Below, one piece after another: positions 5,065 through 22,367 of a stretch of DNA of 29,976 nucleotides. Made by a program: the position numbers and the translations under genes. Under the pieces are notes generated by a model. The model had not been told where the DNA came from and did not search any database. It saw nothing but the letters and a program-made list of their open reading frames with translations. The stretch is from a virus: positions 1 through 29,976 of IMG/VR virus record IMGVR_UViG_3300050014_000204, one strand, 5' to 3'. How positions within the stretch are numbered: the first letter of the stretch is position 1; each line of letters opens with the position of its first letter.

Positions 5065-5952
5065 ATGGAATTAGTGATATACAGTCCTACTGAGGATGGA
5101 TTCTTGAAATCCATAGATTTCAATTATGACGAGTTAAAGACCCAGCTGGAACAGCAGTTAAAAAAATACGAGGGATTGGTTTACTCAGACGAAAACATCA
5201 AGCAAGCCCGGGCCGACAAAGCCACTTTAAATAATTTTAAAAAAGCCATTGAAGCAAGACGAATCGAGATCAAGAAACAATGCTTACTCCCCTATGATAC
5301 CTTCGAAGTGAAGGTTAAGGATTTAATAGCCATGGTTGATAAACCTGTCAATGCTATCACCACTCAGGTGACAAATTATGAGCAACTTATCAAGGATGAA
5401 AAGCTGGCGGGTATCAAGATTGTTTACGCTGATCGGGTAGGAGATTTAGCTAAGTTGGTGCCCTTTGACAAGATATTCAACGAACGCTGGCTCAACGTCA
5501 CTTACAAAGGTTCAGATATTGAGAAAGAAATTAAGGAACTGTTTGTCAAGATTGAAGCTGACCTGAAAGTTATTGACGAACTACAAACGGATTATTCCCT
5601 GCAGATCAAGGATACCTACTTGAAAAATTACGACCTAACCGCGGCCCTTCAAGAGAAAACCAGACTTGAAGAACAGGCTGCCAAGATAGCCGAACATAAA
5701 CGGCTACAGGCTGAGAAGGCTCAGAGAGAAAAAGAACTGAAGGCACAGGAACAACCCAAACCAACAGAGACGGTCAAGGCTCCAACTCCTGTCCCTGAGC
5801 CTATTGCCCAAGAAATTCCAAAACCCGAACCGCAGAAGGTAGAACAACTACGACAGATGGACTTCCGGGTATGGGGAACGGTGGAGCAACTTCTTGATTT
5901 GCAGCAATATCTAAAAACAAACGGTATCAAATATGGGAAGGTCGTGGCATAA
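5065..5952 (+). CDS. DUF1351 protein of the phage recombination cassette
   Basis: About 295 residues, with the DUF1351 pattern: an N-terminal ELVIYSP strand, then long helices including ENIKQARADKATLNNFKKAI and EARRIEIKKQCLLPYDTFE. A Glu/Lys/Gln-rich coiled coil follows at about 205-235, then a Pro-rich linker, then a compact C-terminal part (MDFRVWGTVEQLLDLQQYLK). DUF1351 proteins regularly accompany YqaJ and RecT; their biochemical role is not settled. The ATG at 5065 lies 8 bases after AAAGGA; in-frame ATGs at 5056 and 5059 are too close to that site. Confidence 0.82.
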   Translation: MELVIYSPTEDGFLKSIDFNYDELKTQLEQQLKKYEGLVYSDENIKQARADKATLNNFKKAIEARRIEIKKQCLLPYDTFEVKVKDLIAMVDKPVNAITTQVTNYEQLIKDEKLAGIKIVYADRVGDLAKLVPFDKIFNERWLNVTYKGSDIEKEIKELFVKIEADLKVIDELQTDYSLQIKDTYLKNYDLTAALQEKTRLEEQAAKIAEHKRLQAEKAQREKELKAQEQPKPTETVKAPTPVPEPIAQEIPKPEPQKVEQLRQMDFRVWGTVEQLLDLQQYLKTNGIKYGKVVA

Positions 5953-6906
5953 ATGGCAGTTAAAAACAACTTGGTAGCACAGAGCAAAAAAGAGACATTT
6001 TCCACATATCTTACCCAGGATGCCATAAAAAATAGGATTAATTCAATGGTAGGCGGCAAGGATGGGCAACGGTTTGTTACTGCGATTATCTCCGCAGTTT
6101 CCGTCAATCCTGCACTATCCGAGTGCAATTACGGCACCATTGTATCCTCTGCTATGTTAGGGGAGAGTTTGAAGCTTTCCCCTTCTCCCCAGCTAGGTCA
6201 ATACTACATGGTCCCCTTTAAAAAGAAAGACAAACAGGGAAACGTAATCGACATTCTGGCCCAATTCGTTCTCGGATACAAAGGATATATTCAACTTGCC
6301 ATCAGAAGCGGATATTACAAAAAGATAAATGTACTGGCAATCAAGGAAGGTGAACTCGTTCGGTACGACCCATTGAATGAGGAAATAGAGGTCAATCTTA
6401 TTGAGGACGATGATTCCAGAGAAGCGGCCCCTACCATTGGATACTATGCCATGTTTGAATATCAGAACGGTTTTAAGAAAGCCATGTATTGGAGTTTTAA
6501 GAAAATGATGATTCATGCCGACAAGTATAGCGCAGCTTTTAATTCCGCGTCTTACGAAAAACTTCTTGCCGGGAAAATTCCAGAGAAAGAATTATGGAAA
6601 TATTCTTCCTTCTGGTACAAGGACTTTGACGGCATGGCTTATAAAACCATGTTGCGCCAGATCATAAGTAAGTGGGGCATTATGTCCATCGAACTGCAAA
6701 ACGCCTTTGAGCGGGATGAATCCTTACTGCATGAGGACGGTAGCTTTGAGTATGTAGATAATACCCCAGAGGCATCCGTCAACGATATCACGCCAACAAC
6801 CATTGATACTACGGCCACAGTAGTAATCGACAAAGAGCCGCCACAAGACGAACCGCCGCAGAATGAAGCGGATGTATTCGACCAGATGCTTAAGGCTCAG
6901 GACTAG
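5953..6906 (+). CDS. recT: RecT-family single-strand annealing protein
   Basis: This 317-residue protein is a RecT/Redbeta-type annealing protein. Recognisable segments are FVTAIISAVSVNPALSEC, SSAMLGESLKLSPSPQLGQY, YMVPFK, FVLGYKGYIQLAIRSG, FKKAMYWSFKKMMIHADKYS and GMAYKTMLRQIISKWG, all in the normal order. It binds 3' single strands exposed by the YqaJ exonuclease and anneals them to homologous DNA. The C-terminal 50 residues are acidic, Pro-rich and low in complexity, a usual variable tail. It begins directly after the DUF1351 stop. Confidence 0.93.
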   Translation: MAVKNNLVAQSKKETFSTYLTQDAIKNRINSMVGGKDGQRFVTAIISAVSVNPALSECNYGTIVSSAMLGESLKLSPSPQLGQYYMVPFKKKDKQGNVIDILAQFVLGYKGYIQLAIRSGYYKKINVLAIKEGELVRYDPLNEEIEVNLIEDDDSREAAPTIGYYAMFEYQNGFKKAMYWSFKKMMIHADKYSAAFNSASYEKLLAGKIPEKELWKYSSFWYKDFDGMAYKTMLRQIISKWGIMSIELQNAFERDESLLHEDGSFEYVDNTPEASVNDITPTTIDTTATVVIDKEPPQDEPPQNEADVFDQMLKAQD

Positions 6907-6938: not shown

Positions 6939-7577
6939 GTGGAACCATATAAATCATGGGACTTTTGCAAAGAGATAGAATGTCTGGCAATGAGACGCAG
7001 TAAAGAAGTAAATCAAAGCGATGAGGCAAGAATACAATCCTGCAAAGACTGTAAGGCCTATCAGCTGCATCAATACCTAAAAGGGCATGGGCAGATATTG
7101 GAGGAAGGTAGCGACCTCGAATCCCAGCTTGCCGAGGCGCAGGCAGAGATAATAAGACTAGAAAACGAAGTAATTCCCGAGATATGCGCAAGGGCTATGG
7201 GATATGAGGAAACCAAGACGTTATTAGAGGAGGCGCAGGCAGACAATGCGGCGGTGGCGGAGGCCTATGAATCCTGCGAAGGTGTTAAAAAATATATGAC
7301 CTTACCGCCTTCATACTGGAATGAAGATTGGTCTGAAAAACGAGAGGGCGACTATTACGAGGCGGACAAAAGATACAAAAAAGCAAAAGAAGCCCTTTCC
7401 ACTCCCCACCCCGGCGCGTCCCTGCTGGCAGAACTGGAGCAGTTGCAGAAGGTTAGGGATGCGGCAGTAGCGTTACCGACGATGGATTGTTTTATTACTG
7501 GATGTTTTGATTATCACTGTGATTGTGGTTTTAAAGCATTAGGGCAGGCTCTATCCCAACCCAAAGAGGCGGAGTGA
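6939..7577 (+). CDS. Hypothetical coiled-coil protein with Cys pairs
   Basis: A 212-residue ORF starting at GTG after AAAGGAGG. Residues about 60-110 form a long Glu/Ala/Leu coiled coil (SDLESQLAEAQAEIIRLENE), with a second at about 165-185 (LLAELEQLQKVRDAAVALP). Cys pairs occur near the N-terminus (SCKDCKAYQ) and the C-terminus (CFDYHCDCGF). Proteins of this mosaic type are common among early genes of Clostridia phages, but no function is known to me. Its stop overlaps the next start. Confidence 0.65.
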   Translation: MEPYKSWDFCKEIECLAMRRSKEVNQSDEARIQSCKDCKAYQLHQYLKGHGQILEEGSDLESQLAEAQAEIIRLENEVIPEICARAMGYEETKTLLEEAQADNAAVAEAYESCEGVKKYMTLPPSYWNEDWSEKREGDYYEADKRYKKAKEALSTPHPGASLLAELEQLQKVRDAAVALPTMDCFITGCFDYHCDCGFKALGQALSQPKEAE

Positions 7578-7843: not shown

Positions 7844-8216
7844 AATATGCGCCCAATGCGAGGCCGCTAACGAGCGAATATTCAACGGTCTGCTGGAAGA
7901 ATTTAAAGAACTGCAAGCCGAGAATGAGCAGTTAAAGGCAAGCGAAAAATCGTTGATTGAAGGTCAAAACTCCCTAGAGAATATAAACTTTGATCTTAAA
8001 GAGCAGTTAAGGGCTCTGGAATCAAAGCCGGAGCCTATACAGACAGACCGCATCAACCACCTGGAAAACATAGCATTTATATTGGGCAATGTAGCAAAGT
8101 TATGGGCGGTTAGGTGGGATACCTTGCCCGGATGGGGACGCGAGTTGATTAACGCTTACGACAAGCTACAAGGCCAGAAGCGCGACCAGGTGACCGGGGA
8201 GATTGTGAGCGAGTAA
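7827..8216 (+). CDS. Hypothetical coiled-coil protein
   Basis: A 129-residue ORF starting at ATG 7827 inside the previous gene (17-base overlap). Residues 20-70 are a strong coiled coil (LLEEFKELQAENEQLKASEK and following), and the C-terminal part is aromatic and compact (LWAVRWDTLPGWGRELINAY). A CAQCEAAN pair sits near the N-terminus. No family is recognised. Confidence 0.6.
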   Translation: MPNLAEICAQCEAANERIFNGLLEEFKELQAENEQLKASEKSLIEGQNSLENINFDLKEQLRALESKPEPIQTDRINHLENIAFILGNVAKLWAVRWDTLPGWGRELINAYDKLQGQKRDQVTGEIVSE

Positions 8217-9744: not shown

Positions 9745-9959
9745 GACTACAACCATTAAACGGCAACCGTTTCTCCCAATGGGAGATCGAAGAAATGACA
9801 TACGACCGCGCGCACGGCTATAAAATCAGCGCATTGCCGCTTAAAACAGCGCAGGCGAAGCGCATCAACTGGCGGTATAACATTGCCCTGTTTATAGCTA
9901 TTGCATTGTTCCTGGTCACGCTAATTGTGACAGGGAATCTGCTGGAAAGGTTGGTGTGA
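9741..9959 (+). CDS. Small single-pass membrane protein
   Basis: A 72-residue ORF starting at ATG 9741, overlapping the previous stop (ATGA). The N-terminal 45 residues are polar and basic. Residues 48-68 form one clear membrane helix (YNIALFIAIALFLVTLIVTG). It probably sits in the host membrane with its N-terminus inside. No family is recognised. The neighbour at 9959 also has membrane segments, so the two may act together. Confidence 0.65.
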   Translation: MRLQPLNGNRFSQWEIEEMTYDRAHGYKISALPLKTAQAKRINWRYNIALFIAIALFLVTLIVTGNLLERLV

Positions 9960-10234
9960 TGATGACCTGCTACGATTGCCCTAAATATCGGTATAAATTT
10001 GAGTGGTGCGATAAATATAACACGTCTATGCACCCAGATGATTGCTGCCACAAACCTGAGAGCATTTTAGACAAGCCGGTACCACCCTGGATGGAATATG
10101 CCATTGTCGCCAGCGGATTGTTTGTATTCTTCAGCGCCGCAGCGTATTTTGTTGACCTTGAGTTATTGGCGCCGCTGGTGATCTTGCTGATATATCGGTG
10201 GCTTAGAGAACAGACGAGGGGTGAATCGAAATGA
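9959..10234 (+). CDS. Small membrane protein with N-terminal Cys cluster
   Basis: A 91-residue ORF overlapping the preceding stop; starts at 9956 (GTG), 9959 or 9962 (ATG) are all possible. The first 35 residues hold five cysteines (MTCYDCPKYRYKFEWCDKY and DDCCHKPE), suggesting a metal site. Two hydrophobic stretches follow: AIVASGLFVFFSAAAYFV and LELLAPLVILLIYRWL. It is probably a membrane protein with a cytoplasmic zinc finger. Function is unknown. Confidence 0.65.
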   Translation: MMTCYDCPKYRYKFEWCDKYNTSMHPDDCCHKPESILDKPVPPWMEYAIVASGLFVFFSAAAYFVDLELLAPLVILLIYRWLREQTRGESK

Positions 10235-10575
10235 AAACCATATACACACACCGCATGGAACTATATCAGCAAGGTCTGAGTGATAGCCGGATAGCAGAGG
10301 CCGTGGGAGTTAATCGGCAAAAAATAACGAGCTGGCGCTGGTACTGGGAGCTGCCCAACAGATGGGAGCGTCCGGAACATATAGGCGTTCGTCCCAAAAA
10401 TTCTGCAGGTTGCCCCATGGAGCAGGCACTCACGCCGGAGCAGGCCGATGTAATGCGGGTGTTTCTAAGCGATTTGGTCAAGGCCGCAGATGCCTGCAGG
10501 GGGCGCAAGGACGTGATGGGATTCATGCGCGAGTGGGCGGCGCTAAATTCGGAGGGAAAGAGGGTTGCAGGGTGA
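10231..10575 (+). CDS. Helix-turn-helix protein of unknown role
   Basis: A 114-residue protein whose ATG overlaps the previous gene by 4 bases. Residues 3-35 look like a resolvase-type HTH (RMELYQQGLSDSRIAEAVGV followed by NRQKITSWRWYW). The rest is helical and polar. Such single-HTH proteins occur next to methyltransferases and in small terminase subunits. Here the terminase lies far downstream, so I read it as a DNA-binding accessory protein. It overlaps the methyltransferase start by 4 bases (GTGA). Confidence 0.65.
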   Translation: MKTIYTHRMELYQQGLSDSRIAEAVGVNRQKITSWRWYWELPNRWERPEHIGVRPKNSAGCPMEQALTPEQADVMRVFLSDLVKAADACRGRKDVMGFMREWAALNSEGKRVAG

Positions 10576-11363
10576 ACCTATACAATGACCATTTCCAAAA
10601 TTATAAACGCTACAACATTCCCAAGGCCCAGCTAATCATAGCCGATATACCGTTCAATCTTGGTAAAAATGCCTACGCATCTAATCCCGCATGGTACAAA
10701 GACGGCGACAATCAAAACGGCGAAAGCGAATTGGCGGGCAAATCATTCTTTGACACAGACAATGATTTTCGGGTCGCTGAGTTCATGCACTTTGTAAATA
10801 CCATGCTCAAGAAAGAACCGAAGGAAAAGGGACAAGCGGGTTGTATGTTAGTCTTTTGCGAATTTGAACAGCAGTTTTTGCTTATAGAACAAGGTAAAAA
10901 ATATGGGTTTCCTAATTATATCAACCTTGTTTTCCGGAAGAATTATTCGGCCCAGGTTCTCAAGGCCAATATGCGAATAGTCGGCAACTGTGAATATGCC
11001 CTGGTGTTATATCGGGACAAGCTGCCCAAGTTTAATAATCACGGAAAAATGGTTTTCAACTGCATGGAATACGAGCGGGACAATATAACTCCTAAAATCC
11101 ACCCTACTCAGAAAAGTATCCATGTTTTAAAAAATCTCATTGAAATATTTACGGACGTTGGAGATGTTGTTGTTGACCCGGTTGCTGGTAGCGGAACCAC
11201 ATTAGTTGCCGCTGAAATGCTAGGCCGTAAATCTTTTGGTTTTGAGATTAAAAAGAATTTCGTTAAAGACTTCAATGACTATATGGTTCCCCTCGCCGCC
11301 CCAATACAGGCTATAACAAATAGTGTTATGCCTAATCTTTGGGAAGGGACTCAGGTATTATGA
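10572..11363 (+). CDS. Phage DNA methyltransferase (beta-type motif order)
   Basis: A 263-residue S-adenosylmethionine-dependent DNA methyltransferase. The catalytic motif comes first, as DIPFNLG at residues 25-31, and the cofactor motif comes late, as DPVAGSGTTLVAAEMLG at 202-218, preceded by HPTQKS. This is the order of beta-class N6-adenine or N4-cytosine enzymes. The catalytic motif is DIPF instead of DPPY/SPPY; I recall related phage enzymes with DIPY. No restriction partner is adjacent, so protection from host restriction or a regulatory role is more likely than a full R-M system. GTG 10572 follows AGAGGG; the frame upstream overlaps the HTH gene and is not used. Confidence 0.85.
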   Translation: MNLYNDHFQNYKRYNIPKAQLIIADIPFNLGKNAYASNPAWYKDGDNQNGESELAGKSFFDTDNDFRVAEFMHFVNTMLKKEPKEKGQAGCMLVFCEFEQQFLLIEQGKKYGFPNYINLVFRKNYSAQVLKANMRIVGNCEYALVLYRDKLPKFNNHGKMVFNCMEYERDNITPKIHPTQKSIHVLKNLIEIFTDVGDVVVDPVAGSGTTLVAAEMLGRKSFGFEIKKNFVKDFNDYMVPLAAPIQAITNSVMPNLWEGTQVL

Positions 11364-20446: not shown

Positions 20447-20652
20447 CTTGCCCGCAGCAGGGCAGGAATAAATAAATTAAGAAAGAGAGGCAGTTTATCG
20501 CTAATTGGAGTCTAATTAAATATCTCCCCCACAAGGGGGCAGGGACTAATCATCATGGTAGTTTGGAACAGAGGGGGGATAGGATGGGCAATAGAGAGTA
20601 GTAGTGTGCATAGCGTGCATCGGTTTTTAGTAGGGCCGATACACAAAAAGAG
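20447..20652 (+). other. Noncoding segment with two short hairpins
   Basis: About 200 bases without a supported gene. A hairpin directly follows the YkgJ stop (CTTGCCC and GGGCAGG, 20450-20466, one wobble), and another around 20526-20540 has CCCCC and GGGGG arms. Neither has a U-run. An open frame from 20555 runs straight through the terminator and lacks a ribosome site, so I do not call it. Confidence 0.5.
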
Positions 20653-20680
20653 AGCCGGGTTATTTGCCCGGCTTTTTGTC
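20651..20680. terminator. Bidirectional intrinsic terminator
   Basis: AGCCGGG (20653-20659) and CCCGGCT (20667-20673) pair around a 7-base loop. Rightward RNA ends in UUUUUG; leftward RNA meets CTCTTTTTG on the other side. It ends both the rightward early transcript and the leftward RHH cassette, whose last stop codon lies in the loop. Confidence 0.8.
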
Positions 20681-20830
20681 TCTGTATTGATCTATCGCCT
20701 CCCGGATTAGAGCGTTTATACTGCCCCTTGCCGAATCACCTGCTCGTTTGATCTCTAGTGCTTTATCCTCGAGCCATCGATGCTGGTCGGGAGTGAGCCG
20801 CACAGGGAGCGTTTTGTATGCTGTTGTCAT
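20660..20830 (-). CDS. Ribbon-helix-helix protein, last gene of the leftward cassette
   Basis: A 56-residue protein: a strand TAYKTLPVRLTPDQHRWLED, then ALEIKRAGDSARGSINALIR and EAIDQY. This is the ribbon-helix-helix pattern, a strand ending in V-R-L-T followed by two helices, the second starting SARGSINALIREAI. ATG 20830 lies 7 bases after GGAGGT on its strand. It is the third gene of a leftward operon whose promoter carries three half-sites at 8-base steps, a spacing RHH dimers are known to read (MetJ). Autorepression is the likely role. Confidence 0.8.
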   Translation of the reverse strand: MTTAYKTLPVRLTPDQHRWLEDKALEIKRAGDSARGSINALIREAIDQYRDKKPGK

Positions 20831-20844
20831 TTCATTACCTCCAA

Positions 20845-21075
20845 TTATCGTGTGCCGATATAGTTGATAGCCAGATTGCCCGTACCATCATCTGATATGC
20901 TACAGGTAGTTTTTTCGTCTCGTGCATAAGCTATCCATTCCCCGCTATCTGTATCAAGTTCATATTCATAAATTTCCAGGTCATCAAACTCCGGAGCATG
21001 GTCAACAATAAAGTCACGTATCATTTCTTTAAAATCGTCTTTGGTAAAGCCATCTTTGTCAATTCTTGCTGCCAT
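20845..21075 (-). CDS. Small strongly acidic protein of the leftward cassette
   Basis: A 76-residue protein with AAAGGAGG ahead of ATG 21075. It has about 20 Asp/Glu against 8 Lys/Arg, a net charge near -12 (segments DKDGFTKDDFKEMIRDFIVD and EFDDLEIYEYELDTDSGEW). A helical N-terminus leads into what looks like a beta-sheet. No family is recognised. High negative charge in a protein of this size is typical of DNA mimics but also of many ordinary proteins, so no function is assigned. It lies between the first gene and the RHH gene of the cassette. Confidence 0.75.
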   Translation of the reverse strand: MAARIDKDGFTKDDFKEMIRDFIVDHAPEFDDLEIYEYELDTDSGEWIAYARDEKTTCSISDDGTGNLAINYIGTR

Positions 21076-21076
21076 T

Positions 21077-21322
21077 TTATCTTCCTCCTTTTTTTGCCAG
21101 TGGATTAATGCGGGGGTCCTCCATCATGGATAAGTGATTGAGGGCCTCGTCGTTAGTCTCCGGACTATCGTCGGTCTGATGTAACTCTCCGTTTTTAGCT
21201 GTCCAACTGATACCACCATTGTATATCATGTGTTGCCCTTGCAGGGGGTTAAGTCCAAATATAGGTCCGTAGTCTTTACCGATGATTAATTCCTTTTTCA
21301 TTCCAATCCGCCTCGCTTTCAT
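21077..21322 (-). CDS. Hypothetical protein, first gene of the leftward cassette
   Basis: An 81-residue ORF from ATG 21322 with AAGGA 9 bases ahead; ATG 21301 is an alternative and the frame to 21382 overlaps the promoter. Visible are KKELIIGKDYGPIFGLNPLQ, then GGISWTAKNGELHQTDDSPE, and a basic tail (INPLAKKGGR). No family is recognised. It ends 1 base before the next start and so is co-translated with the acidic protein. Confidence 0.7.
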   Translation of the reverse strand: MKARRIGMKKELIIGKDYGPIFGLNPLQGQHMIYNGGISWTAKNGELHQTDDSPETNDEALNHLSMMEDPRINPLAKKGGR

Positions 21323-21336
21323 TTGCTGCTTTCCTT

Positions 21337-21371
21337 GATATAAGTATATCACGATATACAAACATACGCAA
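21337..21371 (-). promoter_or_regulatory. Leftward promoter with three-half-site operator
   Basis: On the minus strand TTGCGT (21371-21366) and TATACT (21348-21343) are 17 bases apart. Over the -10 and spacer lie GATATA (21337-21342), TATATC (21345-21350) and GATATA (21353-21358), alternating in orientation at exact 8-base steps; the right-hand pair extends to GTATATC-AC-GATATAC. This is the kind of site an RHH dimer array binds, and an RHH gene ends this operon. Confidence 0.7.
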
Positions 21372-21665: not shown

Positions 21666-22367
21666 ATGTTTAAAAGGACAGAAAGGAAGTTTATTAAATG
21701 TTGGAATTGCGGCAAAGATACAAAATATGCCGTGGGTGCATATGCCTCGATACGGCAGTTTTGCCCTTTATGTTGGGAGAAATACAAAGATAATAAATTA
21801 GAAAACACAAAGAAACATGCATATTACAGCAATTTCCTTATGCACGAAAGAGCCTTGAGAATCCTTGAAAAACAAGAAGTAGACATGTATGAATACCAAG
21901 AGGCGAGTGAGGCCGTATTGGACCTTGCTCTTAGGTCTGAAATAAGTAAATTTCGAAGCGCGGACGAAATGGTTGCGGCAATGGAACTACTGCGCAATTA
22001 TGTGCAAATAAAAATGCAAAGGTCAGTAGGGGCTTATAAGATTGACATATACATAGAACCTTTTAAAGTGGCCCTAGAGGTGGACGGGCACTATCACGAA
22101 AACAAGAAGGTTAAAGATAATAAGAGAGATATTGAAATAAGGCAAATGCTGGGTAAAGACTGGGAGATAATTAGAATTCCGACAAAATATGTTGAGGGAA
22201 ATATACAACAATTAATTCCGGCAATTGAGAAGATAAAGGAATACAAACAGTCCTTAAGGAAAGTAAACAACGGAATTATACCGGAAAGCTATTCAGATCG
22301 AGAGAAGCAACATTATGAGCTATTATTAAAAGGCATGAAGAAAACAATTAGAGAACCTAAAATATAG
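21666..22367 (+). CDS. DUF559/Vsr-like endonuclease with N-terminal zinc ribbon
   Basis: A 233-residue protein after AAAAGGAGG. The N-terminus has KCWNCGKD (C12, C15) and FCPLCWEK (C33, C36), a zinc ribbon. Residues 125-200 match the DUF559/Vsr-like fold: KIDIYIEPFKVALEVDGHYH (D127, E138, D140), a helix, then WEIIRIPTKYV. These PD-(D/E)xK nucleases nick or cut DNA and occur as free-standing homing-type enzymes. The gene has its own promoter region and stands apart from the operons on both sides, which fits a mobile nuclease; a role in packaging is possible from its position. Confidence 0.75.
   Translation: MFKRTERKFIKCWNCGKDTKYAVGAYASIRQFCPLCWEKYKDNKLENTKKHAYYSNFLMHERALRILEKQEVDMYEYQEASEAVLDLALRSEISKFRSADEMVAAMELLRNYVQIKMQRSVGAYKIDIYIEPFKVALEVDGHYHENKKVKDNKRDIEIRQMLGKDWEIIRIPTKYVEGNIQQLIPAIEKIKEYKQSLRKVNNGIIPESYSDREKQHYELLLKGMKKTIREPKI

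Follow-up and report, generated by a model that had tools for sequence, protein, structure and literature searches.

A leftward small-gene cassette with a recurrent promoter/operator core in a phage genome, a candidate anti-defence module analogous to acr-aca operons

The window, i.e., the whole stretch of DNA analysed here, is an IMG/VR virus record of 29,976 bases. Three open reading frames on its minus strand lie between rightward early genes, with RecE/RecT, DnaB, and a Holliday resolvase on the left flank, and rightward packaging genes, with TerS, TerL, and the portal gene on the right flank. They are an orphan gene (21077..21301, encoding 74 aa, or 81 aa if the start is at 21322), the gene of an acidic 76-aa protein (20845..21075), and RHH56 (20660..20830), the gene of a putative 56-aa ribbon-helix-helix (RHH) regulator. 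Each is preceded by a plausible Shine-Dalgarno sequence, that of the acidic gene being strong and located inside the 3' end of the orphan gene, and the intergenic gaps are 1-14 bp. The computed net charges are -2 for the orphan, -12 for the acidic protein, and +4 for RHH56. The cassette ends in a terminator hairpin (20653..20673) with T-runs on both strands, in the loop of which lies the stop codon of RHH56. A first-pass annotation of this DNA had described three tightly spaced leftward genes running against the early and packaging modules, an acidic product with a charge near -12, and a bidirectional terminator, all of which were confirmed. The gene adjoining the cassette (21666-22367) is DUF559/REase-like and resembles mREase_II of PADLOC (E 3e-7); in the L013 locus, the position equivalent to it is taken by an HNH-like gene (5724-6038).

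On the cassette strand, the predicted promoter is TTGCGT-17-TATACT, its -10 being of the extended (TGn) type. Its core, TATACTTATATCAAG (21334..21348, minus strand), contains the -10 hexamer at 21343-21348, and the -35 hexamer (21366..21371, minus strand), 17 bp away, is weak. The operator GATATAAGTATATCACGATATA (21337..21358) carries three GATATA half-sites in 8-bp steps, and its inverted half-sites overlap the -10, i.e., an inverted repeat lies within the core promoter. This triple half-site is unique within the 30-kb window and appeared in a fraction of only 0.0002 (0.02%) of the sequences obtained from the promoter region by dinucleotide shuffling, in agreement with the single promoter and 8-bp-stepped operator proposed earlier. 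A simple sigma-70 scan did not pick up the promoter because its -35 is poor; comparative evidence supports the prediction.

Exact TATACTTAWATCAAG was found seven times in 618 kb, where 0.009 occurrences were expected (about 800 times expectation), each time as the -10 of a promoter fronting an operon of small orphan genes; the loci carrying it had been collected for the orphan or for TerL, not for the promoter motif. Beyond the window, the six sites, five of them non-identical, belong to four other phages: L004, L054 (twice, once at its orphan cassette and once at a second operon), L013, and L014/L015, which are identical here. TATACTTATATCAAG, exact or as an A/T variant, occupies the same promoter position in L004, at both L054 sites, in L013, and in L014/L015. 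A -35 to -10 spacing of 17 bp is common to the window, L004, L013, and L014 promoters, and GTGATATACTTAWATCAAG is common to L014 and the window. The window, L004, L014, and the second L054 site all show inverted repeats around the -10, those of the last having perfect 10-bp arms (TTATCTTGAT-N16-ATCAAGATAA); no exact repeat of at least 6 bp was found around the -10 in L013 or at the first L054 site. The setting recurs as well: the operon under this promoter core is also antisense and upstream of the terminase gene in two relatives of the window phage, and antisense beside packaging genes in L013 and in L004, a phage with an unrelated terminase.

The cargo under the promoter core differs among these phages, being either the orphan domain or unrelated acidic proteins. 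The order in the window is orphan, acidic 76-aa protein, and RHH56. In L004 the orphan is followed by a 188-aa ORF, in which there is a GGKRPGSGRKP segment and from which a 54-aa acidic (-12) product may be made at a strong internal start. The first L054 operon consists of the orphan and a 126-aa protein that ends in GGKREGAGRK and is 41% identical to the product of the 188-aa L004 ORF, and the second encodes proteins of 142 aa (-20), 155 aa (basic), and 85 aa, the last being RHH-like with a GGKRQGSGR segment. The L013 operon encodes a 65-aa (-10) protein and a 51-aa GGKRANSGRKK protein, and that of L014 a 108-aa (-7) protein and a 161-aa protein whose C-terminus is the same. The GGKRxGSGRK-type C-terminal segment aligns across the phages. 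At the nucleotide level, GGGCTACCGCAAAGTAGCTCTTTTTT is common to the ends of the L013 and L014 regulator genes, whose 3' ends (L013 5190-5260 and L014 3460-3530) share sequence including a likely terminator; this is consistent with module ends being kept during cargo exchange. The 142-aa protein of L054 (4569-4997), which is encoded behind a perfect copy of the operator common to these phages, matched no family and is a candidate DNA mimic; neither it nor the L013 regulator was found in named phages.

The earlier assignment of the last gene product to the RHH proteins is plausible. The best matches of RHH56 are RHH-type, namely a PHROG Arc-like repressor (E=0.025, residues 8-52) and Pfam RHH_1 (E=0.12), and the matched region fits the layout of the RHH (MetJ/Arc) fold, a beta-strand plus a pair of helices, but both matches are below profile thresholds. 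RHH56 had no Aca-like match in NCBIfam or PADLOC that would place it in a known Aca family. It is alike in type only to the regulators with the shared C-terminal segment, and its gene was found in no other cassette or locus searched. The suggestion that the RHH gene would follow unrelated small genes in other phages was borne out as far as the promoter/operator and the regulator type are concerned, but not for the RHH56 gene itself. Among named phages and plasmids (phages only for RHH56), the window proteins searched gave weak hits and no confident homologue.

A single-sequence AlphaFold2 model of the acidic protein (pLDDT 81) combines alpha structure with a 4-strand antiparallel sheet. The protein had no PDB match at E<=0.001; its best fold match (Z 6.4) was to PepSY/cystatin-like common folds, and the match to Ugi (Z 4.5) was tied with unrelated folds. 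Two structural relatives, both uncharacterised, are encoded by gut siphophages (33% and 30% identity). Ocr-like DNA mimicry, which the first-pass annotation had raised, found neither a sequence match nor a significant fold match, and DNA mimicry by this protein is a guess.

The window orphan had no match in Pfam, PHROGs, NCBIfam, PADLOC, or PDB, as expected from its first description as a protein of no known family, but it does have five homologues in viral contigs. One of them, in L002/L004, was obtained by a peptide-pattern scan and is 69% identical over 59 aa; because its start aligns with M8 (the eighth residue) of the window orphan, the 74-aa form is likelier than the 81-aa form. The changes between the window and L004 orphans number 13, 11, and 33 by codon position, with a dN of 0.23 and a dS of 3.2, the latter saturated, a pattern that indicates purifying selection on a protein-coding gene. 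Four more members (L053-L056) came from a degenerate DNA scan for YNGG[IV]xWTA, and the positions invariant among the members are L, G, Y, YNGG, WTA, and T. Judging from the sequence similarity, the orphan is a member of a previously unlabelled family, YNGGhxWTA, with five other members in viral contigs. The predicted structure of the orphan is of low confidence (pLDDT 44). An extra N-terminal domain is fused to the orphan domain in two members (L056 4299-4649 and L054 3319-3651); Anoxybacillus phage A403 and Parageobacillus phage vB_PtoS_NIIg3.2 encode hypothetical proteins in which the N-terminal domain of L056 (NRKEIMKRAHEIAKKMVGDWYARLALALRQAW) is found as well. L003 (Saprospiraceae) was rejected as a homologue, being by its sequence a short chance match within an AsnA-like protein.

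In L056 the orphan domain is followed by an acidic 91-aa protein (-12) and an HTH_59 regulator, under a promoter with a different repeat, CATCCC-N6-GGGATG, between the -35 and the -10. In L053 and L055 the domain lies in ordinary small-gene runs that lack the shared promoter/operator; the last gene of the L055 run has a weak match to Cro/C1-type HTH proteins, and no regulator was found at the end of the L053 run.

The TerL relatives of the window are L005-L010 and L019 (about 75% identity), plus L011 and L012, and more distantly L013 (67%) and L014/L015 (63%). Six loci (L005, L007, L010-L012, and L019) were inspected upstream of TerS and had no comparable leftward operon, and a profile built from the six orphan members detected no orphan in any TerL relative searched. 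These comparisons support an accessory status of the cassette in the window phage.

The L004 phage (G001) carries mimics of CRISPR repeats. A complete, solitary type I-C repeat stands directly after a TTGCCT-17-TATAAT promoter at L051 483-551 (IMGVR_UViG_3300037608_000038 5982-6050), and 26 nt of it are identical to a repeat of the Nitratidesulfovibrio vulgaris DP4 plasmid NC_008741.1, which has it at 40 or more positions; the L051 unit is a strong racr candidate. Its neighbours, a peptidase/lysin-like gene on one side and a small gene on the other, are both encoded on the opposite strand. The minus strand of L004 has, downstream of the orphan cassette, a pair of degenerate type I-C units (7145-7216) and a further degenerate unit (7900-7931). 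The pair lies about 0.9 kb from the orphan gene and downstream of a TTGACA-16-TATACT promoter match (7315-7288). The repeat score in L004 was 24, vs. at most 12 in shuffles. Because about 12-15% of the L004 phage genome lies within 1 kb of a repeat mimic, the proximity of mimic and orphan is suggestive only. No mimic was found in the window, where the best scores for the 11 repeat types tested did not exceed those of shuffles, and a window hairpin near 20525-20545 has a score within shuffles. The L004 phage also has a PAPS-reductase-like accessory gene (9880-11124).

By analogy, we lean modestly toward the view that this is an accessory, probably anti-defence cassette comparable to acr-aca operons. 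The strong promoter would fire once the host is infected, the orphan (YNGGhxWTA) and acidic proteins would be made as putative inhibitors of host immunity, and RHH56, made last, would bind the inverted half-sites over the -10 and shut the promoter off. The promoter/operator and the regulator ends would form a socket, the cargo of which may be exchanged between phages by recombination. Of the autorepressed anti-defence or lysogenic-conversion cassette proposed in the first-pass annotation, the layout, the autoregulatory promoter logic, and the accessory status are supported, but no known Acr, Aca, or DNA-mimic family was matched. A comparison of the orphans with anti-defence protein sets, recommended at that time, was likewise negative, as Pfam, NCBIfam, PADLOC, and PDB gave no known Acr or anti-defence match for the cargo proteins. 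On balance, the Acr/Aca-like reading gains strength and is our leading hypothesis, short of established membership. More tentative, and in our opinion doubtful as a whole, is a fuller version in which the TATACTTAWATCAAG operator, the RHH/GGKR-GSGRK regulators, a new anti-CRISPR family (YNGGhxWTA), and, in at least one phage, type I-C repeat-mimic RNAs together make up a cargo-swapping mobile anti-defence socket.

Own promoter and terminator and an antisense position at the early/late junction are also classic features of morons, and we consider it unlikely, but worth weighing, that the cassette serves lysogenic conversion or superinfection exclusion, its self-regulated cargo being expressed from a prophage and acting on other phages or on host physiology. 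The window has neighbouring accessory genes, and its anti-repressor (Ant) gene suggests a temperate relative. However, another phage with this type of cassette has repeat mimics, which point to an interplay with CRISPR, and a strong promoter with an autoregulator-like operator is closer to acr-aca operons than to constitutive conversion genes. It is still less probable that the orphan and acidic proteins are developmental regulators that tune the early/late switch with RHH56 in the circuit. The cassette does sit between early genes and the terminase, and a late-type transcriptional regulator (phrog_36) adjoins the island in L004, but the TerL relatives of the same module order had no orphan match, and the same operator precedes variable cargo. 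Antitoxins are often RHH proteins that autorepress through inverted repeats, a habit that RHH56 and its operator would fit, but a type II toxin-antitoxin module is very improbable, since RHH56 is last, basic, and devoid of a C-terminal toxin-binding tail, and its partners are acidic orphans that matched no toxin family.

If the anti-defence reading is true, the 15-bp promoter/operator core would be a DNA bait for anti-defence genes beyond the reach of protein searches, and YNGGhxWTA, with its link to type I-C repeat mimics, would be a candidate family concrete enough to test. RHH-type regulators would also join a field in which the ten described Aca families (Aca1-10) are all HTH proteins (PMC9410906).

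Strongly acidic small proteins in these cassettes remind us of the DNA-mimic inhibitors Ocr, ArdA, and Ugi, but they have no sequence match to them. Solitary repeat units can serve as RNA anti-CRISPRs, and the 1 kb around Racr candidates is enriched in acr genes (PMC10651486); the L004 phage is similar in that it has one solitary type I-C repeat behind a promoter, plus two degenerate units close to its orphan cassette, although these units are putative racr candidates and the window phage has none. As in acr-aca operons, small orphan genes are followed by that of a small DNA-binding protein (in the window, by a sub-threshold assignment), inverted repeats lie inside a strong sigma-70 core promoter, as reported for bacterial Aca families (PMC9410906), and the same regulatory element is found with variable cargo. 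The putative regulators here are of the RHH or GGKR-GSGRK type instead of HTH, and the putative cargo inhibitors have no known Acr match in the libraries searched. Anti-defence genes of archaeal viruses were found by a shared regulatory sequence (PMC11065993). Although we are dealing with bacterial phages, sigma-70 promoters, and unrelated regulators, in both cases a conserved promoter/operator, with inverted repeats overlapping the core promoter, marks otherwise unrelated small genes. The recurrence of one operator before different small genes may reflect a pattern of plug-in anti-immunity kits in viruses.
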